Virus record (IMG/VR): IMGVR_UViG_3300030099_006113
Coordinates: 6,105-68,173 of that record
DNA length: 62,069 bases
Direction: 5' to 3' (one strand)
Source: a virus
The notes under the pieces: generated by a model
The model's input: the letters and a program-made list of their open reading frames with translations, nothing else
Told to the model about the DNA's origin: nothing
Database searches by the model: none
Position numbers and translations under genes: made by a program
Shown here: piece by piece, positions 9,590 through 62,069 of the stretch
Numbering within the stretch: the first letter of the stretch is position 1
Layout of the letters: each line of letters starts with the position of its first letter

Positions 9590-9787
9590 TCACTCCACTG
9601 AATAAAAAAGGTCTTCTTCATCATCTGGAATGCTCTCATCCACCAGAGCCCCCACAGGCACGGCCTGACTATAGCGCTGGCGCGGCTTTTCCCAGAGTTC
9701 TACTTCTATATCACCAACCCTCAGACGCTTGAGCCCGTGCTCTTGTGCCAGGGCTATTATCAATTCAACGTCCATTCTGATTCCCAC
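9590..9787 (-). CDS. small protein between terL and portal, 65 aa (phage A)
   Basis: Overlaps the terL end. GTG 9787 has GGAG eight bases upstream; the in-frame ATG at 9775 is an alternative. The protein has an amphipathic start (MDVELIIALAQEHGLKRLRV), a short beta-like segment (GDIEVELWEKP) and an acidic end (DDEEDLFY). The 88-residue B protein at 46,380-46,646 sits in the same slot with a similar plan (SEIEIQFAP, then FTEEDYLYW). Function unknown. Confidence 0.7.
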   Translation of the reverse strand: MGIRMDVELIIALAQEHGLKRLRVGDIEVELWEKPRQRYSQAVPVGALVDESIPDDEEDLFYSVE

Positions 9788-11187
9788 CAGTCTTTCTCCG
9801 GCTCATATATCTTGTCTTCGATGCGCTGCATAATCTTGAACTCTTCTTGGGAGTATCCATCAGGGACGTAGTCTGTGTCGTCTTGAAATGTGTAGTGGCG
9901 GCTCTCCCGCCAGGCATAGAGGCAGGCATCGGACAGGTGGTTGTCAAACCGAGGGTCTTCCTTGCGTCGGTCTTCGTCCCATTGTAAAACATCCCATTCG
10001 GCTAAGATGCTTTGGTCTAGTACCTTCACCCTGCCTGTCGCTAGATCGTCGTTCATTAGCTCTATGTAGCTGCCCTTGTTGCGCTTTTCCGCAGCCTTCA
10101 AGGGCAGCGAATAGCGCTTTCTAAACTCCTCGACAATCGACTTACCCAGGCCCCCGGTATCGGCCACCATGGTCGTAAACCCATAGATAGCGTCCATATC
10201 CCGTATCGCCGCCGCAATATCCACCGGCAGCATGTGGCTCTTCTTGAATGCATCGACAATGTAGAAGTCAGGCAAGTCCCGACAAAAAGCCCCCACCACC
10301 AGCGCCGTCGCATCTTCGTACCCAAGGTCAATCCCGAGCACGTACTCAAAATCAAACTCATCTAGGGGTACAGACTCGACTAAGTTCTCTTCGTTGTATT
10401 TGTAAATCAGTGAGTCATCCGAGCGCACCCACTTGCCCCGCCACTCACGCAGGTAGATGGGGTTATCCTCGGCCCACCTCTTTTGCTTACGCCTCTTGGC
10501 TAGCCACTCCCCAGCATGCGGAATGTGCGGGTTCTCCATGATGGTCCAGCTGTGGGTGGAATACTCCGACCTAATCCCAGTGGTGGCCTCATAGAAAATA
10601 CCCGAGCAGTGAGCCGCCGGTGTCCCAATCATCGCAAGCGTTCCGTTGTGGTCAACAAGCGCTGGCTCCAAAACCTCTTCGATGAGCACCGACAAGTGCG
10701 GCCCGAACGACGCCGCCTCATCGATGATAACCAACCGGTACGCCGAGCCACGGAGCTTGTCGACCTCGGCCTCGTCATCCGCCCCCGCCAGAATAATTTG
10801 AGAGCCATTCTTCAGCTCCGCCACCAGTTCAGCATTGTTGAACTTGATGTTCAGCATATACTTTCGGTCGGCCTTCTTAAGCTCCGCCCACATCAGTCGC
10901 TTGGCTGACCGCCTGGTCAATGCGATGTAGGCACAGATGATGTCCGGGGTCCGACTGGCCTCTTCAAGCAGGTAATAGCACGAAGCATACGTCTTCCCGC
11001 TTCGACGGCTGCACAGCGCCGTCTTGATCTGTGACTCGTCGTCAATAAACTTGAGCTGGTAATCAAACAAGTCATTGCGCCATTTGAAAGTACGATGCCC
11101 TAGCTCGCGATTGTCTTCGAGCTTTGTCGTATCGCCAAACCGGCGAACATACTCCTGGAGTATGCTATCGGCATCATACTGCTTCAC
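9760..11187 (-). CDS. terL: terminase large subunit, 475 aa (phage A)
   Basis: ATPase motor and nuclease for DNA packaging. The Walker A-type loop CSRRSGKT is at residues 59-66, Walker B LVIIDE at 152-157, and a TPAAHCSG coupling-like segment near 189-196. The RNase H-like nuclease domain shows acidic residues D287 (LGIDLGY), D343 (VADTGG) and D415/D420 (DNHLSD). GTG at 11187 is the only reasonable start; it overlaps the end of the preceding AT-hook gene. The B terminase (46,654-48,150) has the same motifs. Which packaging type it belongs to cannot be told here. Confidence 0.95.
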   Translation of the reverse strand: MKQYDADSILQEYVRRFGDTTKLEDNRELGHRTFKWRNDLFDYQLKFIDDESQIKTALCSRRSGKTYASCYYLLEEASRTPDIICAYIALTRRSAKRLMWAELKKADRKYMLNIKFNNAELVAELKNGSQIILAGADDEAEVDKLRGSAYRLVIIDEAASFGPHLSVLIEEVLEPALVDHNGTLAMIGTPAAHCSGIFYEATTGIRSEYSTHSWTIMENPHIPHAGEWLAKRRKQKRWAEDNPIYLREWRGKWVRSDDSLIYKYNEENLVESVPLDEFDFEYVLGIDLGYEDATALVVGAFCRDLPDFYIVDAFKKSHMLPVDIAAAIRDMDAIYGFTTMVADTGGLGKSIVEEFRKRYSLPLKAAEKRNKGSYIELMNDDLATGRVKVLDQSILAEWDVLQWDEDRRKEDPRFDNHLSDACLYAWRESRHYTFQDDTDYVPDGYSQEEFKIMQRIEDKIYEPEKDWWESEWTLN

Positions 11188-12409: not shown

Positions 12410-12444
12410 GCTTCCTTACCATCCAGGCCCCCGAAAAGAGAGGT

Positions 12445-12465
12445 GCCATACATGTATCGTATGGC
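12445..12465. promoter_or_regulatory. operator-like inverted repeat over the -10 box (phage A)
   Basis: GCCATAC (12,445-12,451) and GTATGGC (12,459-12,465) form a perfect 7-bp inverted repeat with a 7-base spacer. It covers the -10 box of the late promoter, the classic place for a repressor site. The helix-turn-helix protein encoded just downstream is a plausible binder. Confidence 0.6.
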
Positions 12466-12484
12466 AATGCAGTGCATTTGTCAA
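12456..12484 (-). promoter_or_regulatory. sigma70-type promoter of the late operon (phage A)
   Basis: On the minus strand TTGACA (12,484-12,479), a 17-base spacer, then TACGAT (12,461-12,456). The -35 box is a perfect consensus match. Transcription would start about 40 bases before the first late gene (ATG at 12,409). Confidence 0.75.
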
Positions 12485-12514
12485 AGAGGGAATATGTTGC
12501 ACGTGAAACAAAAA

Positions 12515-12640
12515 AGAACCTGGACAAAAAACTTAGGCAAAAAATTTGAAACGGGGAGGTTAAGGCTAAGCCCTTGGAATCAAAAGGAAAGAACCTCGGC
12601 AAAAGAACCTAGGCGAAAAAATCAGAATGACCAGGTTCTT
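12515..12640 (+). repeat. AAAGAACCTnGGC-type repeats (phage A)
   Basis: AGAACCTGGAC at 12,515-12,525, then two tandem copies 14 bases apart: AAAGAACCTCGGC (12,588-12,600) and AAAGAACCTAGGC (12,602-12,614). A reversed CCAGGTTCTT follows at 12,631-12,640, and a weaker ACTTAGGC lies at 12,531. They sit in A-rich DNA upstream of the late promoter. They could be binding sites for a phage regulator or part of an origin. Confidence 0.6.
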
Positions 12641-12739
12641 TATTCCCAGGAGGGAAAAGGGTGAGGGGAAAATTAGTTTTTGTGGCTATTAACGTTAGAG
12701 GGGTCCCCGGTGTCCGGGGTGGGATATCCGATATCCAAC

Positions 12740-12807
12740 CGGTTGGTTAAACCTATCGGTTGGTTATATCGAGCGGTTGATAAAACCGACCGGTTGGTTT
12801 TGACGCA
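12740..12807 (+). repeat. four 17-bp iterons, core CGGTTGRTT (phage A)
   Basis: CGGTTGGTT begins at 12,740, 12,757 and 12,791 and CGGTTGATA at 12,774, so the four units are spaced exactly 17 bases apart. The first unit also forms the palindrome CCAACCGGTTGG (12,735-12,746). Regular phasing of direct repeats in a control region is typical of initiator-binding iterons or a multi-site operator. Confidence 0.8.
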
Positions 12808-13163
12808 ATGCGTCTGACATGCACCACATGTAGTGTAGTGCTACATAGGGCAACGTGTGGCAACGTATGGCAACCTTCAGGCTTCGCCTTCTGAGGTGAG
12901 TTCTCGGCCGGCCTAGGCCATAGGCCCAGTTAGGCCAGAAAGCCGCTCACAATCGATTCTAGGGGCCATGGCGCCCACTTGCGTCCCCTTGGGCCCTTGG
13001 GCCATGGCTAGGGCGCCCCTGGGGGGCAATTTAGGCGGTTTCACATATTTGTTGAGTGTTTTCAGGCACTTAGAGCCGAATTTGCAAGTATGCAGGGTAT
13101 CGAATTTCCGAAAAGCTTAATGAAATCAGCAGGTTAGCTCACTTATAGGTTTAATATATATAA

Positions 13164-13280
13164 TCTCTCTCTTTCTCTCTCTCTCTCTCTCCTACCGTTG
13201 CCTACCCGTTGCCCTTCCTTTGCCTCCCTGTCACCCTCCCGTTGCCTGCCTGTCTCACACTCGCTCACTCTCCCTGGGGC
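13164..13280 (+). repeat. CT microsatellite and pyrimidine-rich tract (phage A)
   Basis: A run of (CT)n with a few interruptions covers 13,164-13,192 and is followed by about 90 bases that are almost purely C and T, with a repeated TTGCC(T) unit. Such homopyrimidine strands can form triplex or unwound DNA. It directly follows the AT-rich TATATAAT segment. The open frame on the opposite strand is low complexity and was rejected as a gene. Confidence 0.6.
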
Positions 13281-13411
13281 CCAAAACAGACAAAAAACAA
13301 AGAAACGTACATTTTTCATTTTCCCCAACAATTCCACACACTTACGGCCCCATATTGCTTGCTGAGACGTCGAAAGTTTGTTGAAAACAACACCTACCGT
13401 CAAACAATTGA

Positions 13412-13441
13412 TTGACGTTCATTCTCAAGTATGACCATAAT
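13412..13441 (+). promoter_or_regulatory. sigma70-type early promoter (phage A)
   Basis: TTGACG (13,412-13,417), an 18-base spacer, then CATAAT (13,436-13,441); each box differs from consensus at one position. GTCAA (13,399-13,403) and TTGAC (13,412-13,416) form an inverted repeat overlapping the -35 box, a possible operator. The start point would be about 13,448, some 30 bases before the first early gene. Confidence 0.7.
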
Positions 13442-13479
13442 CAGGGGCGAGCAGAACACTAACCGAAAGGGTAACAATC

Positions 13480-13653
13480 ATGACACGTCGCGTCAATCGG
13501 GTCGGAAAAGCAAACAGCAATGTTAAGTATTGGTTGGGCAAAATCACATTCTACCACTTGGGTGATTCGCCTCGAATGGTCACCGCCATTGCCAAGGACT
13601 TGAAGCAAGCGTACCGCGAATTGGAGGTTGCGCAAGCCATGGCTCAACAGTAG
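13480..13653 (+). CDS. small early protein, 57 aa (phage A)
   Basis: First gene after the early promoter. It starts at ATG 13480, preceded by the recurring leader GAAAGGGTAA, and ends with TAG at 13,651. The protein is basic at its N-terminus (MTRRVNRVGKAN) and helical afterwards (MVTAIAKDLKQAYRELEVAQAM). It contains a KYWLGKITFYHLG segment that looks like a beta hairpin. I do not recognise a family. Confidence 0.7.
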   Translation: MTRRVNRVGKANSNVKYWLGKITFYHLGDSPRMVTAIAKDLKQAYRELEVAQAMAQQ

Positions 13654-13672
13654 TCCAGCCCCACAACCTAAC

Positions 13673-13704
13673 CCACCTCGGCCGCTCTATGCGGCCTTTG
13701 GTGG
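13673..13704 (+). terminator. two-tier hairpin between early genes (phage A)
   Basis: CCACC, two unpaired bases, GGCCGC, a 5-base loop, GCGGCC, TTT, then GGTGG. A hairpin of the same design (two bases on the left, TTT on the right, 5-base loop) lies at 14,325-14,358. Both stand just before an AAAGGGT leader, so they may be attenuators or processing sites rather than full terminators. Confidence 0.55.
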
Positions 13705-13735
13705 TAAGATCTAACCACAAACAAAGGGTAACATT

Positions 13736-13858
13736 ATGTCATACATCAAACTACAACGAGCCATGGCCACCAACAATCTCTCATGGGCCATGCGCCTACA
13801 CTACCGTAAAACGTTTCGTTGCACTGTGTCACAAATCATCGACGCACTAACCTACTGA
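13736..13858 (+). CDS. tiny early protein, 40 aa (phage A)
   Basis: ATG 13736 follows AAAGGGTAACATT, the same leader as its neighbours, and the frame closes at TGA 13,856. The peptide is basic with aromatic residues (SWAMRLHYRKTFRC) and has one Cys. The gene ends 12 bases before the start of the next one, whose GAGGAG ribosome-binding site begins in its stop codon. No family recognised; support comes from leader and spacing. Confidence 0.55.
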   Translation: MSYIKLQRAMATNNLSWAMRLHYRKTFRCTVSQIIDALTY

Positions 13859-13870
13859 GGAGTCAGAGCA

Positions 13871-25553: not shown

Positions 25554-25817
25554 TCACCAATTCTTGCACGACCAGTAACGGGCCGTAAGTTTTGAGGGTG
25601 GCTTGCTGTCGCATTTGTGTCGGGCCCGAAAAGACTTGCGTCTGGCCGGACTGCTTTTTTTAATTCTCATATTGGGATCGCCAAATCTAATCGTCTTGGT
25701 CTTATTGCCTTCCTTGGCAACAACGACAAACTTCTTTGGCCCACCCGGTGTCCGCTTCGGACGATTGTAGGCCCTGACTCCCGCGCGAGCAAGCTTTGGG
25801 TCTTTCTTCTTTGGCAT
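25554..25817 (-). CDS. small basic protein, PKKKDPKLARAG family, 87 aa (phage A)
   Basis: ATG 25817 overlaps the stop of the peptidoglycan-enzyme gene (TGATG) and follows GGAGGAG. PKKKDPKLARAGVRAYNRPKRTPG at the start and SPARRKSFRARHKC...LTARYWSCKNW at the end define a phage family with two conserved Cys. The B relative (40,778-41,065) sits in the tail operon instead, so this gene has moved between operons. Possibly a DNA- or virion-associated protein. Confidence 0.8.
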   Translation of the reverse strand: MPKKKDPKLARAGVRAYNRPKRTPGGPKKFVVVAKEGNKTKTIRFGDPNMRIKKSSPARRKSFRARHKCDSKPPSKLTARYWSCKNW

Positions 25818-26383
25818 CACCACTCCTCCAGCAACGTATAGCTAAACGACTTATATCCCAGAGTAGCTATTTGCATTCGCGCCAGGCGCATCATTTCATC
25901 AAAGTCTGATTCGTTCGCCAGTACTTGGCAACCAGCTGACCATCTATCTACGCGAGTAGAATGTTCGCCCGCTTTGTGAAGATTAATACCAAAGAAGCCA
26001 GTATCCACATCGCCCTTCATGTCGAGATTTCCGTCCCTGTCAGCATCGCGCCATACAGTTACTTCGCCACCCCTTTGGCATAGGGCTTCGTATTTGCCAG
26101 CGTGTGAATCTATTTCCCAGATACCAGGATAATGACCAGGGCACAGGATAGCGGTGCCTTTTACTTGAAGAGGGTTGAGCAGGTAGTATTGACCAGGGTC
26201 AGTCGTTGCTGTCCAATAATGCGCCATCCACTGACCGCCCTGCCTGTACGTGCATGTCAGCATGTCGTCGAACTTGTTTGGCGCACCGTTTCTTTTTCGC
26301 ACACCTACAATATTCAGATCGTATTGGCCGTCGAAGACAGGGTGACCCATCGCCTTCTTCCGCGCTAGTATTGGGGGCAGCAT
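25817..26383 (-). CDS. putative peptidoglycan-acting enzyme (endolysin-like), 188 aa (phage A)
   Basis: Contains FFGINLHKAG followed by DRWSAGCQVL, reminiscent of the His...Ser-x-Gly-Cys active-site arrangement of L,D-transpeptidase/carboxypeptidase-like lysis proteins. An earlier RDADRDGNLDMKGD stretch could bind calcium. It follows the holin gene, so it is the best endolysin candidate. ATG 26383 immediately follows the stop of the -1 frame extension of the holin. The B copy (60,031-60,597) differs at few residues. Confidence 0.75.
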   Translation of the reverse strand: MLPPILARKKAMGHPVFDGQYDLNIVGVRKRNGAPNKFDDMLTCTYRQGGQWMAHYWTATTDPGQYYLLNPLQVKGTAILCPGHYPGIWEIDSHAGKYEALCQRGGEVTVWRDADRDGNLDMKGDVDTGFFGINLHKAGEHSTRVDRWSAGCQVLANESDFDEMMRLARMQIATLGYKSFSYTLLEEW

Positions 26384-26611
26384 CTAAAACCTCCACTTGA
26401 GTCCTGCCGTTGTCTGCCAATTCAATGCCTCGTTTATTTCTACGCCCGCATCAACGAACGCGCTTAGTCCCTCAGTAATTTCGCCACTAACTGACGCAAA
26501 GGCTTCGGCGCGTACTTCAGAAGAAGAAGAGCCGAGAACACGTAAGCCGAGGTCAAGAGCACCACCAGATACGTCCCTTGCCGCAACGGCATCCCTTATT
26601 CCTCCGGCGAC
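26384..26611 (-). CDS. -1 frame extension of the holin, 75 codons (phage A)
   Basis: After slippage at A-AAA-AAG the -1 frame reads VAGGIRDAVAARD onward for 75 codons to TAG at 26,386-26,384, directly before the endolysin ATG. The frame has no ATG, GTG or TTG before its last 15 or so codons, so it is unlikely to be made alone. Between A and B (60,598-60,825) most base changes fall in the third position of this frame, and about 60 of 75 residues agree. The product ends in LKWRF. The fused protein would be about 148 residues: a holin with an added C-terminal domain of unknown role. Confidence 0.75.
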   Translation of the reverse strand, partial: VAGGIRDAVAARDVSGGALDLGLRVLGSSSSEVRAEAFASVSGEITEGLSAFVDAGVEINEALNWQTTAGLKWRF

Positions 26612-26829
26612 TTTTTTACCTGTGACACCGCCTCCGCAGACGCAAGGGCTCGTTTTACTGTGGCCCTAGACTGAGAGTAGCTGGCCCCACAAACAGCAGC
26701 TAGGATAGGTCCGCCAACTTGAGCCCACTGTGAGTCGGAGAAGATGGCACAGAGGATGCCACCGCACATTCCCAGAAGGGTCATTAGGAACTCTGAACTC
26801 CTCAGGCCATTAGTCTTGCCTTGAATCAT
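26596..26829 (-). CDS. holin, zero-frame product, 77 aa (phage A)
   Basis: Two hydrophobic segments (FLMTLLGMCGGILCAIF and VGGPILAAVCGASYS) separated by a SDSQWAQ turn and followed by a charged tail, the class II holin plan with the common WAQ...YSQSRATVK ending. It overlaps the upstream coiled-coil gene by 20 bases and lies before the endolysin candidate. The frame ends at TAA 26,598-26,596, but a slippery A-AAA-AAG four codons before the stop allows a -1 extension. Confidence 0.85.
   Translation of the reverse strand: MIQGKTNGLRSSEFLMTLLGMCGGILCAIFSDSQWAQVGGPILAAVCGASYSQSRATVKRALASAEAVSQVKKSPEE
26611..26635 (-). promoter_or_regulatory. -1 ribosomal frameshift signal in the holin gene (phage A)
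   Basis: Slippery heptamer A-AAA-AAG (26,617-26,611) in the correct phase (GTA AAA AAG), with an internal Shine-Dalgarno sequence GGAGG (26,635-26,631) 13 bases upstream. E. coli dnaX uses the same heptamer and an upstream Shine-Dalgarno stimulator. I see no strong conserved downstream hairpin. The same elements at the same spacing occur in B. Confidence 0.75.
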
Positions 26830-27100
26830 CTCGCTCTCTCCTGTCCCGCTCTACTGCGTCTTTGATATCCATGCGGCGAATAATTTCATACGTATTGCTT
26901 AACGCCTCGCGCGTCTTTTCGCTTACGTCGTTAACCCTGTCACTCAATGCCTCAATCTTTTCTTCGTTGACTGCTAGCTTAGACGCCAACCCGTTACCGT
27001 TATGCTTCGGGTTTCGCTTGTCACTGAATCGCTCGGCTAGGCGCATCCCAACAACGATTGCCGCAACAACGCCCCCGCCGAGTGCCGATTCAGGGTCCAC
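26810..27100 (-). CDS. membrane-anchored coiled-coil protein, spanin-like, 96 aa (phage A)
   Basis: GTG 27100 (VDPESALGGG) is preceded by GAGGG and lies one base after the upstream stop; B uses the same GTG at 61,314. A short hydrophobic segment (GGGVVAAIVVGMRLAERF) is followed by a long charged coiled coil (VNEEKIEALSDRVNDVSEKT). One membrane segment plus coiled coil beside holin and endolysin suggests an inner-membrane spanin or lysis accessory protein, by analogy only. Confidence 0.75.
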   Translation of the reverse strand: MDPESALGGGVVAAIVVGMRLAERFSDKRNPKHNGNGLASKLAVNEEKIEALSDRVNDVSEKTREALSNTYEIIRRMDIKDAVERDRRERDDSRQD

Positions 27101-27101
27101 G

Positions 27102-27347
27102 TCAGCCCTCGCTCGCCGTAGCGTCTTCAACCGTGTGGCCGCCTTCGGACATCTTGGCTTTTAGCGCTTCAATAGCGCTATCAATCAGCGATGTAACGCC
27201 TTCACCTTCAAGCGGTAGGTTGACGCCGAAGCGCGTATTGTCGACTTCAGGAAGTGTCGCAATCGCTTGGCATGATGCACTGACGCCGCCATCTGCAATT
27301 GATTTTGTAATAGTCACCTGTACGGTGTGTAAGGTTTTAGTCGCCAT
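27102..27347 (-). CDS. small conserved protein, 81 aa (phage A)
   Basis: Beta-rich start (TLHTVQVTITKSIADGG), a middle segment ATLPEVDNTRFGVNLPLEG, and a helix SLIDSAIEALKAKM before a charged end. It overlaps the tail-fibre stop by 11 bases (ATGGCGACTAA). The B copy (61,316-61,561) is almost identical. Position after the tail fibre and before the lysis genes could mean a fibre-assembly or virion protein; unproven. Confidence 0.75.
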   Translation of the reverse strand: MATKTLHTVQVTITKSIADGGVSASCQAIATLPEVDNTRFGVNLPLEGEGVTSLIDSAIEALKAKMSEGGHTVEDATASEG

Positions 27348-28851
27348 TTTTTAGCTCCTGAATTTGAGTATGCATTTCTTGCAAGGCTTTTGTTAAGACT
27401 GCAACTAAATGCCCGTAAGACATCGACTTGCTGCCGTTTTCACCGAACACAACTTCGGGAATAATTTGCTCTACTTCTTGAGCAATAAAACCGATGTCTG
27501 CTTGGCCTGTTTTTTTGTAATCGTAACCAACGGGCCTTAGCTGCAAAACAGTTTCAAGGCCGTATGGAATTGTCTCAATATCGGACTTTAACGCAATGTC
27601 GGAAGCATCTGTGAATACTCCGGCAGCCGTTAGTTTTGCACCGCTGTCGTCAAGAATTGAATCACCAGTGCCTGCATTTTGAATTTCCAGTGCAACGGGA
27701 TTGTTGGTCGAATCATTTTGATCAACAACGACACAGGGCACGTTAGCGCCATCCGGGCAGTTGACTTGAAGTTGCCCGCTTGCATCAACACACTCGTGAT
27801 TTACGCCAAGCTTGTGATCATGGTCTACATTTATCGCAACCGAGTTTTGCATAATCAGAAAAAACATGTCGGCGTTGGTCCCGCCGCCATGCGTGTAGCG
27901 CAACTCTCCCGCCATCGAGTTTTGCGGATCTCCGAATGCAATTGTGTTGCGCGAAGTATTATTGCTTAGAAGTGAAATCCCTGGATGCGTGTTAGCCTCA
28001 ATAACCAGCATGTCTGCATGAGTGTTTGCGGAGCCGATTCCGGTGTCATCTTCTTTGATGTGGATTCCATTTGACGCGCAGATAGGCGAGCTTTCGGAAC
28101 CTGTGCTTAGTTTGCCACCGTCGAAAATACGGATAACGCTATCGTTTTGAATTCGAAGCCGCTCTGAGTTTGCAACTTGAAGCCTCAGTGAACCGGTGCC
28201 CTGATCGAAGGCTATTCCATCCGGTGTGCCACCAGTATTCTCATCGATAAAATACAGGCAGCCTTTGCCGTTTGTAGGTGTCAGGATTGAAATGCCTGTG
28301 TTGCCGCTGCCCTCCACAATCAAATCATCAGCGTCTGCATGGACGTCGCTAGAGGTTGCGGCTGAGTCGCCGGTTTTAAGGTGCAGCGAGCCCGCACCAC
28401 TGCCAAGACTGGTGGTCTCGCCGCCCGTCGTAATTTTACCATCTTGAAACACAGCCAAGTGGGTAGCGCTGTCGTTTGCAATCCCAAAGTTTGCGCCGGA
28501 GGATTTTAATCTGAATGCGATGTCGCCTTGAGATATTCCGAGAATGCCGTTTGAGCCTGCGCCGCTTACGTTTAAAACTGTAAAAAAATCATTTGTTGCG
28601 CCGCTCGGATCAGCCTCGACTCGAAACTCGCCATCAACGCTCAGAGTTCTAGAAAACGTAGGTTCGCCAATGTGAACATGCGCACCACCGCCCCCTAGAA
28701 TTACCCTTTCGGCTGAATCAGTGGTGTCAATTGCTAGGTAATTTTTATCGTCAATTGAATCAATCTCAAGCGCAGTGGTGTTGTTATCAGGAACAGCAAT
28801 AGTGCCCCCGCCAAGCGCGTTACCAAAGATAACTATATTTGCATCTGCCAT
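27337..28851 (-). CDS. tail fibre/spike with C-terminal S74 chaperone peptidase, 504 aa
   Basis: The long middle part is rich in Gly, Asp, Ser and Thr with beta-repeat character (LRLQVANSERLRIQNDS; ILGISQGDIAFRLKSSG), as in trimeric fibres. The last 88 residues match the S74 intramolecular chaperone: S417 in SDIALKSDIE with K422, then LRPVGYDYK, ADIGFIAQEV and a C-terminal coiled coil. The domain trimerises the fibre and then cuts itself off at the Ser. The 77-bp repeat (27,779-27,855) lies in this gene, so its N-terminal part may belong to genome B and its C-terminal part to A. Confidence 0.85.
   Translation of the reverse strand: MADANIVIFGNALGGGTIAVPDNNTTALEIDSIDDKNYLAIDTTDSAERVILGGGGAHVHIGEPTFSRTLSVDGEFRVEADPSGATNDFFTVLNVSGAGSNGILGISQGDIAFRLKSSGANFGIANDSATHLAVFQDGKITTGGETTSLGSGAGSLHLKTGDSAATSSDVHADADDLIVEGSGNTGISILTPTNGKGCLYFIDENTGGTPDGIAFDQGTGSLRLQVANSERLRIQNDSVIRIFDGGKLSTGSESSPICASNGIHIKEDDTGIGSANTHADMLVIEANTHPGISLLSNNTSRNTIAFGDPQNSMAGELRYTHGGGTNADMFFLIMQNSVAINVDHDHKLGVNHECVDASGQLQVNCPDGANVPCVVVDQNDSTNNPVALEIQNAGTGDSILDDSGAKLTAAGVFTDASDIALKSDIETIPYGLETVLQLRPVGYDYKKTGQADIGFIAQEVEQIIPEVVFGENGSKSMSYGHLVAVLTKALQEMHTQIQELKNGD
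27779..27855. repeat. 77-bp exact direct repeat, left copy (genome joint)
   Basis: Identical to 61,993-62,069, the last 77 bases of the window. Base 27,778 is G where 61,992 is A, so identity starts exactly there, and it runs to the end of the sequence. A length of exactly 77 matches a common assembler k-mer, which suggests that 27,856-62,069 is a closed circle and that the joint to A is a graph artefact or shared node. Confidence 0.9.
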
Positions 28852-46653: not shown

Positions 46654-48150
46654 TCAGTTTACCCACAGATCTTCTTCTGAAATCCCAATTCCCCATAGAT
46701 CTGGATCATACTTATCCTGGCTGTCTCTCTCAAGAAGATTATCAGCAATACGCTCCTCAAGCTGCTTGAAGTAATCTTTTGTACCCACTTCGGGTCCCGA
46801 TCCCTCATATTCATGTAGAAAGTGACGACTTTCTGTCCAAGCATAAAGAGCGGCATCCGAAAGGTGATTATCAAACCTTCTATCTTCTGCTGTTCTTGAT
46901 TTGTTGTACTGTAGCTTGTCCCACTCTTTTAGCAGGTCCATTCCACTGGCTACTTTGATTACACCGTTCTTGATGTCTGAGTTCATGAGTTTAATCATGC
47001 CCATTTTGTCGGATGACTTTTTGGCTGGCTTAATTGGTAGCCCAGAGCGCTCTTTGAATGTCTCAAGCAACATTCTTGATGAACCACCGCCAGTATCCAT
47101 TACAATGGAAGAGAAATCATAATCGCCCATAAATGCGTGGATTTTTTCTTCAACCTCAGAAGTCAGCATCTTGGTTTGCTTGTATTCATCAATGAAGAAA
47201 AGGAATGGATGATCTGGTGACCAAGCAGCGACGACAAAGGCGGTAGCATCATGGTAACCGAGGTCGATACCGAGGACGAACTCCCAGTCATTACTTTCGG
47301 GAGTATCCTCAAGCAAGTTGTCCTCAGAGTACTCGTAGACGATATCTTGGTCGTTTCTTACCCAGAGTCCCAAGTACTCGCGCTTATAGGAGGAATCAGT
47401 TGGGTCAAGAACCCCACTTTTGATGTCAGCCTCTATGGATCTGACAGCGTGCGCCATGTAGGGATTATTTTTAACTGTCCACCTGTGAACTGAAAAGCTG
47501 TATTTATCCTTTTCAGTAATGTCATAAAAAAATCCTGAACAAGAACTATTAGGCGTAGAAATTAAAACCAGTGCGCCGTCTCTATCAAGCAAAGCAGGAG
47601 TTAAAACTTCGTTTACGAGCTCGCGTAAGTTGATGTTAAAAAAAGCAGCTTCATCAAGAACAGCCAAGGAAAATGCTGCACCGCGTAATTTATCCACGTC
47701 ACTTGCATCGTTGGCACCAGTAAAAAGAATCTGAGATCCATTAGGAAAGGTAGCTACAAGGTCTGCATTATTAAACTTAATACCAATCCTAAATCTTTGG
47801 TTAGCCTCCTTAAGGGAAGCCCACAAAATCCTTTTAGCCGCCTCTCTTGTCCTAGCAATGTAGACACACATGGTGCCTTCGTTCTCAAGGGCCTCTTTGA
47901 TTAAATAACGCCCTGCAGCATAACTCTTTCCACTTCTTCGACTGCATATAGCAGCCTTCCTCTTTGAAGGGTCGTTAATGAAATCAAGCTGCTCTTTAAA
48001 CAAGTTACGAGTCATGTTGAGCATTCGGCTATGCTCAGATCTTCGCTGGGCTTTGTTCTTAGAGGGACCGGTATGGCCAGACCTGGACACAAAAGCCTCA
48101 TAAAGCTCTCGACTAGTAAGGCTAATCGTTGGCAGCTTGGTCTTAGCCAT
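46654..48150 (-). CDS. terL: terminase large subunit, 498 aa (phage B)
   Basis: ICSRRSGKSYAAG is the Walker A-type loop and LAVLDEAAFF the Walker B; LISTPNSSCSGFF corresponds to the coupling segment. The nuclease acids appear in LGIDLGYHDATAFVV, VMDTGGGSSRM and DNHLSDAALYAW, each matching A. I chose ATG 48150, which overlaps the GNAT stop (ATGGCTAA); an upstream in-frame start at 48,189 would add 13 residues. Confidence 0.95.
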   Translation of the reverse strand: MAKTKLPTISLTSRELYEAFVSRSGHTGPSKNKAQRRSEHSRMLNMTRNLFKEQLDFINDPSKRKAAICSRRSGKSYAAGRYLIKEALENEGTMCVYIARTREAAKRILWASLKEANQRFRIGIKFNNADLVATFPNGSQILFTGANDASDVDKLRGAAFSLAVLDEAAFFNINLRELVNEVLTPALLDRDGALVLISTPNSSCSGFFYDITEKDKYSFSVHRWTVKNNPYMAHAVRSIEADIKSGVLDPTDSSYKREYLGLWVRNDQDIVYEYSEDNLLEDTPESNDWEFVLGIDLGYHDATAFVVAAWSPDHPFLFFIDEYKQTKMLTSEVEEKIHAFMGDYDFSSIVMDTGGGSSRMLLETFKERSGLPIKPAKKSSDKMGMIKLMNSDIKNGVIKVASGMDLLKEWDKLQYNKSRTAEDRRFDNHLSDAALYAWTESRHFLHEYEGSGPEVGTKDYFKQLEERIADNLLERDSQDKYDPDLWGIGISEEDLWVN

Positions 48151-48601
48151 AAGCAACTCTTTGCTCTTCAGGCGAAGACATAAGCTCAAATATAAAAGCA
48201 GGAAGAAGACTACTTACAAAACGAGTGTGCCATTTAGACCGAGCATCCATTTTCTGCATATGAAAGGACCAATAAGAGCAAAAAACAGGGTTATCTCTAT
48301 TACGCACTGTGTCAGGGTATACCTCATTGAGCATTTCACTGCCAATACCATTACCTCTGAAGCTTTTTTTAACAAAAAGAAAGTGCAGTAATTTTGTTTC
48401 TTCTATCTGGCCATAGGCAATCCAGCCTAAAATATGGTCAGCATCGTCTCGGTCGCAGTAAATAAGGACTTTTTCGTCCTCAATAACTTTATCAATGAGG
48501 TGCCTAGTCATAGCAGTTACTGCTTTTGTGGGGCATTTCACAGATCTAATCCACGAATCATAGACAAAATCGTGGTCAATGGGTCTGATTCCTCTAATCA
48601 T
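48143..48601 (-). CDS. GNAT-like acetyltransferase, 152 aa (phage B)
   Basis: IRGIRPIDHDFVYDSWIRSV at the start, then LHFLFVKKSFRGNGIGSEML, which contains the GNAT acetyl-CoA motif R-G-N-G-I-G, and a C-terminal AYG. It sits between the small terminase candidate and terL as in A. The substrate is unknown; conservation in both genomes argues for a packaging- or takeover-related task. Confidence 0.85.
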   Translation of the reverse strand: MIRGIRPIDHDFVYDSWIRSVKCPTKAVTAMTRHLIDKVIEDEKVLIYCDRDDADHILGWIAYGQIEETKLLHFLFVKKSFRGNGIGSEMLNEVYPDTVRNRDNPVFCSYWSFHMQKMDARSKWHTRFVSSLLPAFIFELMSSPEEQRVAYG

Positions 48602-48926
48602 TGCTTGCCTTCCTTTCCCGAAGTGCCTTTTTCACGAGCTTTTCCAGCTCTTCATTCGACATCTTAGCAATAGCATCAGACTTTAATTGCGATTCAATCT
48701 CTAACAATCGCTTTAAACCCCCGAAACAACTGTCTAATTTCTGCATATCTTTATTATCTAGCTCGCCATTATTGTCTACCTTGTCTTTTAAAAGGGATAT
48801 CTGGCTTTCTGTTATGTGAAATAAATCATCCCAAAGCTTATGCTTGTCTCTTGATTGAACAATCTGAGGCTTCTGCCCCATTACGCTGTAGGAACCAGTG
48901 GCTCTAGTCTTTTTTGTAGCTGTCAT
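48594..48926 (-). CDS. candidate terminase small subunit, 110 aa (phage B)
   Basis: Basic N-terminus (TATKKTRATGSYSVMGQKP) followed by helices (LWDDLFHITESQISLLKDKV) and the C-terminal SDAIAKMSNEELEKLVKKAL that matches the A gene at 11,818-12,168. First gene of the B late operon; unlike A, no helix-turn-helix gene precedes it. No good Shine-Dalgarno is visible, which hints at a leaderless or poorly translated start. Confidence 0.65.
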   Translation of the reverse strand: MTATKKTRATGSYSVMGQKPQIVQSRDKHKLWDDLFHITESQISLLKDKVDNNGELDNKDMQKLDSCFGGLKRLLEIESQLKSDAIAKMSNEELEKLVKKALRERKASND

Positions 48927-49576
48927 AAGAAAAGATTAGACGATGATTTGATCTACAGGCAAGTCAAAGCTAGAATACAAAGACCCCACAGCTACGGAGT
49001 AGACGCCAGTGACCCAACGGGTCACCCTTTAGGCGGACACGCAACCCTTGTCGCCCTTCTGTCCGTTTCGTACCTAACGATAAGACATTACCCAGTTGGA
49101 TATCGGCAAGGGCAACGGGCGTAGCTCACCGTTGCAGCACAATATAGGTATCCAATCCTACGGGCTTTTTAGGTCAATCCGAGGGGGGGTGCTTGAGGGA
49201 TCTCGATAACGCACTGCGATAAACGAAAATTAGGCAAAAATTCGTAGAGGGTATTTAACACTCTATTGACTTTGCTCTCTGGGGGGTACCCCCTGACTAT
49301 ATTGCACTGTAACCGGCAGTAGCGGATGTCCACTGTCATTCCTTGGGCCGTCAGACCTCCGCTCATCGCTCGGCCTGGTCGCTCCGCGAGTGAATTACAC
49401 CTCACGAAAATAAACAACTTTCCCATGTTTTCCCTGTATTCCTTGGTATTTTAACCTTTCGTACAGATCAAAACAGTTCGGTTAATTCACAAAAGGTGCC
49501 CGGATACGTTCGTCACTTCCCACCCTCCCACCCTACGGCGTGCGTTGCCCTCACGATGCCTCCGGCGGCGCCTACC

Positions 49577-50247
49577 CGGCGGGGGCAAACGTGCGACGTT
49601 TGATCCGACACCCCCGCCCCCTAGAGAACCTGCGACTCTCGAGCAGGACTACCGACGCTCCCGAAGCCATTGAGTACAATGTCTCCGACAGCTTACGAGT
49701 CCTGCACTCGGCCACACGTTCTCTCCACCGCAAGTCCGAGAACCTTGGCAATGTTCTTCGCGGGATCTGCATGCCTCATTAGTCGATAGGCCCGCTCAAT
49801 GGACTAACGACGCCTGAGTACAGGCTTACGAGTCCATGGGCAGCTACCTGCATCTCTCCGGGATACTATCAAGCTGAATTACCCGCTAGAATCAGAGCCA
49901 CTAACGACGCCTCCGGCTTACGAGTGGCCCTAGATTCGCTACCAGCTCAGAACACTCCGGGCAGGCGAGTACGCCCGCCTTGCCTCGGAATCGGACGTAG
50001 GGTTGTGACAGGAAGGTCTAATCCTACACTCCTGTGCTCTATCTATCTCTATCTCTCGAATTAATCGGCGTGAGTCTACCAGCCGTCGTCGGGCGGTAAA
50101 GGACGGGCGAGTACGCCCGCCAGCCTCTGCGAATAGACACAAAAGATACGGAGTACCGTACTTTTGCATCGATTCTTGATTCTGGTTAACGAAGGCCCAC
50201 ACGACTGCTTGGCTGAGTACAGCCAATCAGGCGCTTAATCGGGCCTT
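49577..50247 (+). ncRNA. candidate large structured RNA with six AGTA-loop hairpins (phage B)
   Basis: Hairpins with different stems but the same loop: CATTG-AGTA-CAATG (49,667-49,680), GCCTG-AGTA-CAGGC (49,811-49,824), GGCG-AGTA-CGCC (49,963-49,974), CGGGCG-AGTA-CGCCCG (50,103-50,118), TACGG-AGTA-CCGTA (50,146-50,159) and TTGGCTG-AGTA-CAGCCAA (50,208-50,225). The last is enclosed by an 8-bp stem (50,190-50,197 with 50,240-50,247). An 8-bp stem GGCGGGGG/CCCCCGCC (49,577-49,617) encloses AAACGT/ACGTTT, and ACAGGA/TCCTGT lies near 50,010-50,035. Different stems around one loop indicate selection on structure. Strand is assumed; AGNN loops are known RNA tetraloops. A DNA-level origin role is the alternative. 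Confidence 0.55.
49643..49927 (+). repeat. three copies of a covarying ACT-AMCGAC / TTACG-AGT internal-loop hairpin (phage B)
   Basis: Copy 1: CAGGACT (49,643-49,649) with AGTCCTG (49,697-49,703). Copy 2: ATGGACT (49,798-49,804) with AGTCCAT (49,830-49,836). Copy 3: GCCACT (49,896-49,901) with AGTGGC (49,922-49,927). In each, the outer stem is followed by A(A/C)CGAC on the left and preceded by TTACG on the right, around an inner stem (GCT/AGC, GCC/GGC). Outer stems differ with both arms changing together. Copies 1 and 2 are capped by AGTA hairpins, copy 3 by TCC. Confidence 0.7.
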
Positions 50248-50365
50248 CTAATCCTTGACCGTCCTCCTCCGTCTGGGTCTGCAAGGCCTCACTTAATTCA
50301 AGAAGAAATCGTAAAAAACATAAACAAAACTTACGGTTTCGTAACACTCAAAAAAGGAAGACAAC

Positions 50366-50998
50366 ATGTCATTGACTCAAAAGTTACTAGCTAAGCACGG
50401 CGCTAAGATGTCCAACAAAGCACTGTCCGCTGCAACAACTGGCCAGCACAAGCCAGCGCCTCTTGACCAGTCTCGCCTGTCCATTGCCTTCGAATTCATT
50501 GAGGTGGTAGCCACCATCCAGGTGATGTTTGAGCGTCAAATGGCTCCCGCAGGGTCAGGTGAAGCCTGCAAGGAAGCATGGAAGGAAATCAAGCAGGCTC
50601 TTCGCAAGCCTAGCGGTGAACACGGCCGCTTTTGGCGCGAGATACACACAGCCTGCGACGCGCACGGCGTCGACTGGTTCGCAGACGGCGGCGCTGACGC
50701 TAAGCTGGCTGCGGTCCACTCCATCCGGGTATCACGCGGAGACGTTACGGAAGACGGTCGTGAGGCTCCGACCCCGGACATGGCGGACTTGCCCCAGGAT
50801 CCCGAGCCGCGATGGATTGACTGTCCGGCACCGGACGTCACCGACGCCGTGCACGAGGACTACGACGAGGTCCAGGCTAACCGACTCAGCGAGGTCGGGG
50901 CGCACTTCGCCGCAGTTGCGGAGGATGTCGCGTCGTACGGACGCATGTGCAACGGGGTCTGGGTGATGGATCACCTGGACACCGACCCGCTCCTCTAA
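50366..50998 (+). CDS. hypothetical first early protein, 210 aa (phage B)
   Basis: ATG 50366 follows AAAAAAGGAAGACAAC. The protein has a helical N-terminal half (IAFEFIEVVATIQVMFERQM) and an acidic, Pro-rich C-terminal half (EAPTPDMADLPQDPEPRWID). Its second half is clearly richer in G and C, with a different codon choice from later B genes, suggesting recent acquisition. A good terminator follows, so it forms its own transcription unit. No family recognised. Confidence 0.75.
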   Translation: MSLTQKLLAKHGAKMSNKALSAATTGQHKPAPLDQSRLSIAFEFIEVVATIQVMFERQMAPAGSGEACKEAWKEIKQALRKPSGEHGRFWREIHTACDAHGVDWFADGGADAKLAAVHSIRVSRGDVTEDGREAPTPDMADLPQDPEPRWIDCPAPDVTDAVHEDYDEVQANRLSEVGAHFAAVAEDVASYGRMCNGVWVMDHLDTDPLL

Positions 50999-54517: not shown

Positions 54518-55260
54518 GTAGATTTGAAATTAATTTACCAGATGAAAAGCTCCGCATAAAGCCACCTAGGTCAATCTATTACGGGCCACCCAAGATTGGT
54601 AAGTCTACATTTGCCAGCAAGTTTCCATCTCCCATTTTTATTCAAGCAGAAGATGGTGTGTCTGGCCTAAATGTTTCCAAGATACCAAGGACTCCTTTGG
54701 TTTCGTGGGATGAGCTCATGAAATGCTGTGATCAAGTACTTAAATCACCCCATGAAATGAAAACCTTGGTTGTAGATACTATCGACCGAGTTGAGCACTT
54801 ATCTCGCCAGTGGGTTCTTAAGCATACATATTCAAATAACAAAAAAGACTTTATGGCTTACTTCAAAGGACCAGTTGAAGCAGGTCAGAAGATATCCGAG
54901 CTACTCGCTTGTCTTGATCAGATCAGAGATGAGCGAGGAATGAATATCATTGTTCTTAGTCATGAAGGTCTGCACAAAGGGGCTGATGAGCTTGGCGAAG
55001 AGTTCAAGAAAACGGCCCCATCTGTTTCTCGCTATGCATGGGAGCAGCTACACAACTGGGCAGATCAAATAGGCCACATCACGAATGACTTCAGAGTTGT
55101 TCAAGGTAAGGCACGTCAGGCCAACAAAGGCAGACACATTGTATTTTCGGGTCACCCAGGCAAAGAGGCCGGTACTCGAGCTGGCTATGAAATGCCAAAA
55201 GAAATCAAACTAAACTTTGAGGAATATCTCAAACACACAAAGGAGTACCTTGCATGCTAG
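54514..55260 (+). CDS. RecA-fold AAA ATPase, Sak4/AAA_24-like, 248 aa (phage B)
   Basis: Walker A YGPPKIGKST (residues 23-32) and Walker B TLVVDTID (84-91, with D88). MNIIVLSHEG corresponds to the sensor strand. It belongs with the A ATPase at 19,795-20,472 and is again followed by the DUF669-like gene. Probably a single-strand annealing recombinase or recombination mediator. Confidence 0.85.
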   Translation: MSRFEINLPDEKLRIKPPRSIYYGPPKIGKSTFASKFPSPIFIQAEDGVSGLNVSKIPRTPLVSWDELMKCCDQVLKSPHEMKTLVVDTIDRVEHLSRQWVLKHTYSNNKKDFMAYFKGPVEAGQKISELLACLDQIRDERGMNIIVLSHEGLHKGADELGEEFKKTAPSVSRYAWEQLHNWADQIGHITNDFRVVQGKARQANKGRHIVFSGHPGKEAGTRAGYEMPKEIKLNFEEYLKHTKEYLAC

Positions 55261-59839: not shown

Positions 59840-60030
59840 TAGTTTTTATAACCTCCGCCAGCGGCTTTGTATTGCTTAGCCAGCATTTGAGCTTTTCTTG
59901 CAGACCATTGGCCTGGTTTACCACCTTTTCCGCCTGCTTTGATTTTATTGAAAAGCCTTTTACGCATAGCTGGCTTTGTATAGTTGCCAGACTGATTGAC
60001 TTTGCTTTTTGTTTTTCTCTTTGCAGCCAT
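59839..60030 (-). CDS. small basic protein, SARKAQMLAKQYKAAGGGYK family, 63 aa (phage B)
   Basis: ATG 60030 directly follows the TAG of the endolysin-type gene. KSKVNQSGNYTKPAMRKRLF and QWSARKAQMLAKQYKAAGGG define a family common in aquatic phages, of unknown function. In A the PKKKDPK gene takes this place. Confidence 0.75.
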   Translation of the reverse strand: MAAKRKTKSKVNQSGNYTKPAMRKRLFNKIKAGGKGGKPGQWSARKAQMLAKQYKAAGGGYKN

Positions 60031-60597
60031 CTACCATTCCTCAAGTAGCGTGTATGAGAATGACTCACAGCCGAGTGTAGCTATTTGCATTCTTGCAAGC
60101 CTCATCATCTCATCGAAGTCTGACTCATTAGCCAATACCTGGCAACCAGCAGACCATCTATCTACTCTTGAGCTGCTTTCACCTGCTTTATGACAATTGA
60201 TTCCAAAGAAGCCAGTGTCCTTTGGTCCATTCATATCTGCCTGGTTGTCCCTGTCGGCATCTCTCCATACGGTAACTTCGGCTCCTCTTTGGCAGAGTGC
60301 TTCATACTTGCCAGCATGTAAGCCAATCTCCCATACTCCCGGGTAATGGCCAGGGCAGAGTATTGCTGTTCCTTTTATTTGTAGAGGATTTAGCAGGTAA
60401 TACTGACCAGGATCAGTAGTAGCGGTCCAGTAATGAGCCATCCATTGGCCACCCTGGCGATACGTGCAGGTTAACATGTCGTCGAATTTGTTTGGCGCAC
60501 CGTTTTTTTTTCTCACACCTACAATGTTGAGATCGTATTGTCCGTCGAAGACAGGGTAACCCATCGCCTTCTTCTGGGCTAATATTGGGGGCAGCAT
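60031..60597 (-). CDS. putative peptidoglycan-acting enzyme (endolysin-like), 188 aa (phage B)
   Basis: Nearly identical to the A protein (25,817-26,383), with FFGINCHKAG and DRWSAGCQVL as the His...Ser-Gly-Cys motif; note Cys beside the His here where A has Leu. ATG 60597 follows the stop of the -1 frame extension without gap. Likely endolysin of the operon. Confidence 0.75.
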   Translation of the reverse strand: MLPPILAQKKAMGYPVFDGQYDLNIVGVRKKNGAPNKFDDMLTCTYRQGGQWMAHYWTATTDPGQYYLLNPLQIKGTAILCPGHYPGVWEIGLHAGKYEALCQRGAEVTVWRDADRDNQADMNGPKDTGFFGINCHKAGESSSRVDRWSAGCQVLANESDFDEMMRLARMQIATLGCESFSYTLLEEW

Positions 60598-60825
60598 CTA
60601 AAACCTCCACTTTATTCCTGCCGTTGTTTGCCAATCTAAACCTTCATTCAACTCTATGCCTGCATCAACAAAGGCACTTAACCCTTCAGTAATTTCTCCG
60701 CTAATCTCTGCAAAGGCTTCGGCGCGTACTTCAAAAGCACTAGACCCGAGAACACGTAAGCCGAGATCAAAAGCACCGTTAGACGCGTTCCTCGACTTAA
60801 CGGCATCTCTTATTCCTCCGGCGAC
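60598..60825 (-). CDS. -1 frame extension of the holin, 75 codons (phage B)
   Basis: Reads VAGGIRDAVKSRN onward to TAG at 60,600-60,598, the same length as in A, ending IKWRF. No start codon is available in the frame near its beginning. Codon-by-codon comparison with A shows mostly third-position changes (for example GAC/GAT, GCG/GCA, GGA/GGG, TTC/TTT, CAG/CAA), so this frame, not the overlapping ATG frame, is under protein-level selection. Confidence 0.75.
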   Translation of the reverse strand, partial: VAGGIRDAVKSRNASNGAFDLGLRVLGSSAFEVRAEAFAEISGEITEGLSAFVDAGIELNEGLDWQTTAGIKWRF

Positions 60826-61043
60826 TTTTTTACTTGAGACACAGCCTCCGCAGATGCAAGAGCTCGTTTTACTGTAGCCCTGGATTGAGAGTAGCTAGCC
60901 CCACAAACAGCAGCTAGGATAGGCCCTCCGACTTGAGCCCACTGGGAATCGGAGAAGATGGCACAGAGGCAACCACCAATCATACCTAATAATGTCATTA
61001 GGAACTCTGAACTCTTAAGGCCGTTAGTCTTGCCTTGAATCAT
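60810..61043 (-). CDS. holin, zero-frame product, 77 aa (phage B)
   Basis: Two membrane segments (FLMTLLGMIGGCLCAIF and VGGPILAAVCGASYS) and the same QVKKSPEE tail as A. Differs from A mainly at LKS/LRS and Ile/Cys positions. Stop at 60,812-60,810, with the slippery site four codons earlier. Confidence 0.85.
   Translation of the reverse strand: MIQGKTNGLKSSEFLMTLLGMIGGCLCAIFSDSQWAQVGGPILAAVCGASYSQSRATVKRALASAEAVSQVKKSPEE
60825..60849 (-). promoter_or_regulatory. -1 ribosomal frameshift signal in the holin gene (phage B)
   Basis: A-AAA-AAG at 60,831-60,825 in the GTA AAA AAG phase, with GGAGG (60,849-60,845) 13 bases upstream, exactly as in A, although the bases between differ at several positions. 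Confidence 0.75.
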
Positions 61044-61314
61044 CGCGTTCTCTCCTATCCCGCTCTACTGCGTCTTTGATATCCATGCGGCGAATAATCT
61101 CATACGTATTGCTCAACGCCTCACGCGTCTTGTCGCTTACATCGTCAACCCTGTCGCTTAACGCCTCTAGCTTTTCCTCGTTAACCGCTAGCTTAGATGC
61201 AAGTCCATTGCCGTTATGCTTTGGGTTTCGCTTGTCACTGAATCTTTCGGCCAGGCGCATGCCTACAACGATTGCCGCAACAACGCCCCCGCCGAGTGCC
61301 GATTCAGGATCCAC
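61024..61314 (-). CDS. membrane-anchored coiled-coil protein, spanin-like, 96 aa (phage B)
   Basis: GTG 61314 (VDPESALGGG), one base after the previous stop. GGGVVAAIVVGMRLAERF then the coiled coil VNEEKLEALSDRVDDVSDKT; almost identical to A. Overlaps the holin gene by 20 bases. Confidence 0.75.
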   Translation of the reverse strand: MDPESALGGGVVAAIVVGMRLAERFSDKRNPKHNGNGLASKLAVNEEKLEALSDRVDDVSDKTREALSNTYEIIRRMDIKDAVERDRRERDDSRQD

Positions 61315-61315
61315 G

Positions 61316-61561
61316 TTAGTCCTCGCTTGCCGTTGCGTCTTCGACGGTGTGGCCGCCTTCGCTCATTTTGGCTTTTAGCGCGTCAACGGCACTGTCAATT
61401 AGCGATGTGACGCCGTCGCCTTCAAGCGGTAGGTTAACGCCGAAGCGCGTGTTGTCCACTTCAGGTAGCGTTGCAATTGCTTGACATGATGCGCTTACGC
61501 TGTTGTCAGCGATTGATTTAGTGATAGTCACCTGGACGGTGTGTAAGGTTTTAGTCGCCAT
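61316..61561 (-). CDS. small conserved protein, 81 aa (phage B)
   Basis: TLHTVQVTITKSIADNSVSA and the FGVNLPLEGDGVTSLIDSAV block match the A protein (27,102-27,347). Overlaps the fibre gene stop by 11 bases. Function unknown. Confidence 0.75.
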   Translation of the reverse strand: MATKTLHTVQVTITKSIADNSVSASCQAIATLPEVDNTRFGVNLPLEGDGVTSLIDSAVDALKAKMSEGGHTVEDATASED

Positions 61562-62069
61562 TTTTCAACTCCTGGATTTGGCCATGCATCTCTTGCAGGG
61601 CGCGGGTCAAGACAGCAACCAGATGCCCGTAAGACATCGACTTGCTGCCGTTTTCGCCAAAAACAACCTCGGGAATAATTTGCTCAACCTCTTGAGCGAT
61701 AAAGCCGATGTCTGCTTGGCCGGTTTTTTTGTAGTCGTAACCAACGGGCCTTAGCTGCAAAACAGTTTCAAGACCGTAAGGGATTGTCTCAATGTCAGAC
61801 TTTAACGCAACGTCAGAAGCATCCGTGAAAACTCCGGCAGCAGTTAGCTTTGCACCGCTGTCGTCAAGGATTGAATCACCAGTCCCTGCATTCTGAATTT
61901 CTAGTGCAACGGGATTGTTGGTCGAATCATTCTGATCGACAACGACACACGGCACGTTGGCGCCGTCCGGGCAATTGACTTGCAGCTGCCCACTTGCATC
62001 AACACACTCGTGATTTACGCCAAGCTTGTGATCATGGTCTACATTTATCGCAACCGAGTTTTGCATAAT
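61551..62069 (-). CDS. partial tail fibre, C-terminal part with S74 chaperone domain (phage B)
   Basis: The frame enters from the right edge and covers the last ~172 residues: fibre sequence, then SDVALKSDIETI with the catalytic Ser/Lys, LRPVGYDYK and ADIGFIAQEV. If 27,856-62,069 is circular, the missing N-terminal part is at 27,856-28,851, giving a complete gene across the joint. Confidence 0.85.
   Translation of the reverse strand: MMQNSVAINVDHDHKLGVNHECVDASGQLQVNCPDGANVPCVVVDQNDSTNNPVALEIQNAGTGDSILDDSGAKLTAAGVFTDASDVALKSDIETIPYGLETVLQLRPVGYDYKKTGQADIGFIAQEVEQIIPEVVFGENGSKSMSYGHLVAVLTRALQEMHGQIQELKNGD
61993..62069. repeat. 77-bp exact direct repeat, right copy (window end)
   Basis: Identical to 27,779-27,855 and ends exactly at the window end. 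The base before it (A at 61,992) differs from the left copy. See the left copy for interpretation. Confidence 0.9.

Follow-up and report, generated by a model that had tools for sequence, protein, structure and literature searches.

A noncoding block of about 700 nt (positions 49605-50305, minus strand) was identified in the window, that is, the whole 62,069-nt stretch of viral DNA analysed here, and appears from sequence comparison to represent a new family within an established class, the large structured phage RNAs. The block is conserved in several phages, and its secondary structure covaries. The family is considered new because the Rfam models do not identify the RNA as GOLLD, ROOL or pRNA. 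Nothing in Rfam matched the RNA at the gathering threshold or at permissive ones, and the GOLLD model gave no hit up to E<=5; a PhotoRC-I hit on the minus strand (E=0.21), which is below threshold and overlaps a single hairpin region, was rejected. The isolated-phage collection gave short chance matches only. The first-pass annotation had proposed a previously undescribed structured RNA, with covarying homologues as a check; such homologues were found, and the proposal was upheld. The family would belong to uncultured tailed phages of marine-type metagenomes.

Genomic setting and the repeated hairpins

The 5' end of the RNA would be at 50305 and its 3' end at about 49605, as estimated from conservation. 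It lies upstream of a probable terS (48594-48926) and of terL (46654-48189), and an acetyltransferase gene runs in the same direction. A noncoding block at 49090-49300, upstream of terS, is conserved in most of the terminase relatives (ACACCCTCCATGAATTTTT...GCGCAGTGCGTTA...CACCCCCCC) and is a candidate cos/pac site. The palindrome GGGGGTACCCCC (49283-49295) is followed by a T-rich run in most relatives and is therefore terminator-like; in the window the T run is absent. A divergent ORF of 210 aa (50366-50998) has 60.8% GC in a phage of 43.5% GC; it has no Pfam or PHROG match, and was perhaps imported along with the RNA block. The window itself (1-62069) contains two related sets of phage genes in head-to-tail order, with terL at 9760-11187 and 46654-48189, and positions 25793-27855 and 60004-62069 are 85% identical; tandem prophages, a concatemer or an assembly chimera are candidate readings. 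In the first of these two phages, the corresponding intergenic region (12440-13870) has no RNA match and instead contains ACCGGTTGGTT-type repeats.

The GC content of the RNA region is 55.6%, versus 43.5% in the surrounding phage. It was first described as free of genes; the listed short ORFs are not conserved as coding, because relatives differ by 25- and 59-nt indels. The six hairpins sharing one tip, from which the first-pass annotation started, were all found: GAGTAC stands at the tip of perfect hairpins at 49672, 49816, 49967, 50109, 50151 and 50215, and in each the stem continues for 3-6 perfect pairs past the closing G-C. Region 49605-50305 has seven tetraloop hairpins with stems of 4 bp or more, and six of them have this tip; whereas 500 dinucleotide shuffles of the same region gave at most two hairpins with an identical tip. 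Across both strands of the window, no second tip has three copies inside 560 nt. The window contains 28 copies of the hexamer GAGTAC against an expectation of 16.5 +/- 4, and outside the block the sole copy with as many as 3 flanking pairs is at 55243. The stems had been described as having nothing in common, which is correct for four of them; however, those at 49967 and 50109 are near copies (90% match across 21 nt), and at least one whole-hairpin duplication is therefore likely.

Predicted architecture and strand of the RNA

The predicted 5' domain (50056-50301) is closed by UUGAAUUAA (50301-50293) paired with UUAAUUCGA (50064-50056), and has a four-way-junction core that is also present in the related loci L023, L010 and L011. 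The layout shared with these three loci includes helix H1 (GAGGACGGUCAAGGA/UCCUUUACCGCCC), the junction, and helix H3 (AAUCGAUGCAAAAG..CUUUUGUGUCUAUU); two variable hairpins, H2 and H4, complete the domain. H1 (50079-50276; strands 50276-50252 and 50103-50079) covaries in its inner part across five phages, with both sides changed at pairs 4-93 and 14-83. H3 (50131-50175; strands 50175-50156 and 50151-50131) ends in the tip gUACUc.

The 3' domain (49608-50002), which is specific to one clade, is composed of long-range helices enclosing three arms. In the pairwise consensus these helices are 50002-49999/49621-49618, 49996-49991/49739-49734, 49988-49980/49751-49743 and 49954-49942/49764-49752. 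Every arm contains one internal-loop module, ACUCGUAAGC opposite GCGUCGKUAGU. Arm 1 (49889-49937) has the module as ACUCGUAAGC...GCGUCGUUAGU and is capped by a cGGAg triloop; arm 2 (49794-49841) has the same module and the tip gUACUc; and arm 3 (49643-49705) has the module in the GCGUCGGUAGU form, also with the tip gUACUc. Three copies of the module are present in the window, three in the related locus L031, and two in the covered part of L022. The module model R2 found no convincing copy outside these three loci.

On the minus strand the six tips read gUACUc. They belong to hairpin a (CAUUgUACUcAAUG, 49668-49681), b (GCCUgUACUcAGGC, 49812-49825), c (49960-49979), d (GGCGGGCgUACUcGCCCGUC, 50102-50121), e (50147-50160, the tip of H3) and f (50209-50226). 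Hairpin c is longer on this strand, with 8 bp when G-U is allowed. Where the hairpins can be compared, the tip is retained in every case, four in L031 and two in L022, despite differing stems. For example, the pair beside the closing pair in arm 3 (hairpin a) is U-A in the window, G-C in L031 and U-G in L022, and the loop is unchanged; in hairpin d, a C to U change in L031 gives a G-U pair. The expectation that relatives with the same gene order would have the hairpins was borne out in part: two of the six are absent from L031, namely c (within a 25-nt indel) and f (inside a missing 59-nt stretch), and several relatives that share the gene order have no RNA match at all.

The equivalent tips in L023, L010 and L011, including that of hairpin e, are different (CGUG, CUUG, CCUG, GAAG or triloops). 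Within these phages, other tips are found on more than one stem: L023 has two copies each of cGCAg and cTCTg, and L011 has two of cGCAg. The pattern suggests selection on a tip that is uniform within a lineage and different across lineages, with small counts outside the window's group. No conserved unpaired AGUA partner for a kissing interaction with UACU was found within the RNA on inspection by eye, and a literature search found no paper on a 'UACU tetraloop'. The H3 tip of L011 is apparently expanded relative to L010 into three tandem perfect hairpins (L011:3914-3950; GTGCG-CCTG-CGCAC, CCC-GAA-GGG and GCCAC-GCA-GTGGC). The upstream regions of L010 and L023 also have many short GCGAAGC- and GCGCAGCGC-like hairpins, dispersed in noncoding DNA.

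Three lines of evidence favour a minus-strand RNA, which would be in the same direction as terS, the acetyltransferase gene and terL. Firstly, the fold z-scores against shuffles are -6.6 (window) and -5.7 (L031) on the minus strand, versus -3.1 and -1.3 on the plus strand; comparison over a wider stretch agrees with this order. Secondly, when the structure was predicted from one sequence without reference to the other, changed pairs of the minus structures were kept in the other phage in 22 of 41 (null p 0.02) and 23 of 44 cases (p<0.0005); whereas the plus structures kept 7 of 34 and 8 of 31, which is not significant and no better than chance. Thirdly, two neighbouring G-U pairs in H3 are conserved in all five phages, and their plus-strand equivalents would be A-C mismatches. 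The plus-strand AGNN tetraloop of the first-pass annotation is thus unsupported, as the favoured strand has g-UACU-c and not G-AGUA-C at the tip. A promoter scan gave no match on the minus strand. In L031 the 5' end of the RNA directly adjoins the start of the divergent gene, so that a promoter there would fall inside this gene.

Covariation was evaluated in two alignments. In the five-phage alignment of the 5' domain (A6), five pairs changed on both sides, and the covariation score was reached in 3 of 500 shuffles; slid versions scored lower. In the four-row alignment A3, seven pairs changed on both sides and 99.8% of the cells were standard pairs; the slid controls gave far lower values. Since two of these rows had also served to optimise the A3 structure, the substitution test above is the independent one. 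The 5'-domain alignment was trimmed by hand, leaving out H2, H4 and an L011 insertion, so the model R1 built from it leans towards its own members; R1 recovered the untrimmed member loci, and their top-scoring matches lay on the expected strand.

Distribution and exchange between phages

Relatives were collected with the module pattern, which found L002, L003 and L004, and with two terminase searches, which gave 70 and 80 loci. Only six phage contigs carry the RNA, and in three of them divergence is too great for the 3' domain to be shared. L031 (on the same contig as L004) is 84.5% identical to the window across 49608-50190; the terL DNA is 70% identical. L022 covers the 3' part of the RNA, and L023, L010 and L011 share the 5' domain. 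No other locus matched R1, including some twenty terminase relatives in which the upstream region is present.

Several weaker candidates were rejected. A pattern scan of the genome collection gave two matches, one terminator-like and one apparently coding, which were judged to be chance. The loose module pattern found 19 more single-match viral contigs, mostly without flanking pairs, likewise judged to be chance; the loose H3 pattern found 11 more contigs, none of which scored with R1. A further terminase search revealed no new homologues, and a literature search on structured RNA upstream of terminase found nothing matching. A different conserved noncoding stretch occupies the same position in L020 (1563-1830), L018 and L035, with about 80% identity and repeated CTCCCGCG..GCGT units. 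It was tested as a distant version of the RNA and was not accepted, because its fold z-scores of about 0 to -2 are close to chance.

The carriers are not a single clade by terL; in that tree the window is placed nearest to L008, and L022 pairs with L031 as its sister. Comparison of the RNA gives a different kinship: the window and L022 share 91% identity in the RNA versus 85% for L031 and L022, whereas their terL DNA identities are 69% and 84%, respectively. Because this kinship conflicts with the terminase tree, the RNA is read as moving between phages, exchanged as a unit. L008 and L012 were scored as non-carriers, and upstream coverage falls short at both, so the number of changes on the tree is approximate; the identity contrast is independent of both loci. 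Moreover, the GC content of the RNA is near 55% in four of five carriers (50% in L010), and that of the carriers themselves ranges from 43 to 52%.

Candidate functions and alternatives

GOLLD is an ornate RNA of phages and prophages, often longer than 800 nt and of unknown function; half of the molecule is conserved and the other half variable (PMC12286853). ROOL is also a large ornate RNA of phages and prophages, in which some stems are optional between homologues; the present element is similar to both in length, phage location and complexity (PMC12286853). However, the 3' region is the most widely shared in GOLLD, whereas here it is the 5' domain, and the element adjoins packaging genes. 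GOLLD often lies near tRNA genes and ROOL near tRNA islands; whereas ARAGORN found no tRNA in the window, and neither has a matching Rfam model here. The three identical internal-loop modules and the repeated identical tips also distinguish the element from ROOL. GOLLD forms a homo-oligomeric RNA nanocage, phi29 packaging RNA is bound to the portal/motor, and leaders of the put and 6S type make RNA polymerase read through terminators.

By analogy, we lean slightly towards a scaffold RNA comparable to GOLLD and ROOL. The RNA would be transcribed, probably alongside the late genes, and might act in trans as a stable scaffold. The identical tips and the three modules may be docking points present in multiple copies, which would serve either RNA-RNA contacts at the tertiary or quaternary level or the binding of a repeated protein to the RNA; a tip that is uniform within a lineage and different between lineages would be explained by this role.

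The main rival, itself rather unlikely, is a cis-acting leader of the late operon, in which the terS/terL transcript would begin with the RNA, and the RNA would control terminator read-through in the manner of HK022 put or of lambda pR'-6S (upstream of tR'). The element is directly upstream of a phage operon in the same orientation. The layout would fit such leaders in most relatives, where a conserved terminator-like site, GGGGGTACCCCC with its T-rich run, lies between the RNA position and terS. However, many relatives have the same operon and the terminator-like site and no RNA match, and the window's own site is without the T run. Known put or 6S leaders are several-fold smaller than the RNA of about 700 nt; moreover, it occurs patchily, and its exchange between phages suggests an independent module. 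A more doubtful proposal is that loop identity might be an assembly or recognition code in a horizontally exchanged, self-assembling RNA, where the majority of a lineage's tips have one loop; the code would be common to many hairpins and switched as a set between lineages. The loops would then be gUACUc here and the cGCAg, cTCTg or cGAAg triloops that recur among L010, L011 and L023.

There is little probability of a DNA-level element, with minus-strand hairpins formed in ssDNA at a replication or packaging origin, as the first-pass annotation had also suggested. The block is noncoding, between divergent operons and near the conserved cos-like block, and some tips in other relatives, cGAAg and cGCAg, are GNA-type triloops, a class with very high stability in DNA; however, the helices spanning about 400 nt, the conserved G-U pairs and the substitutions preserved through G-U make this reading disfavoured. 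Slighter still is the chance of a packaging RNA, one that would join the motor as phi29 pRNA does and be its analogue in function. Both are structured RNAs encoded by phages, and the element is close to the packaging genes and the cos/pac-like block; however, it is patchy among phages with 60-85% identical terminases, has no match to the Rfam pRNA models, and is much larger (about 700 nt versus about 120-170 nt for phi29-type pRNA). Least probable is a plus-strand RNA with AGNN-type G-AGUA-C loops, such as a leader of the divergent early gene at 50366, whose 5' UTR begins in or beside the block: the six hairpins are equally perfect on that strand, whereas its weak fold scores, its pairs not preserved beyond chance and the G-U pairs that turn into A-C all argue against it.

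Large structured phage RNAs are few, and the element would add an uncatalogued family beside packaging genes. The architecture of repeated tips and repeated modules would be an unusual trait of such a family. Tips and stems have evolved independently of each other among its relatives, which would provide a ready-made natural test of loop function.
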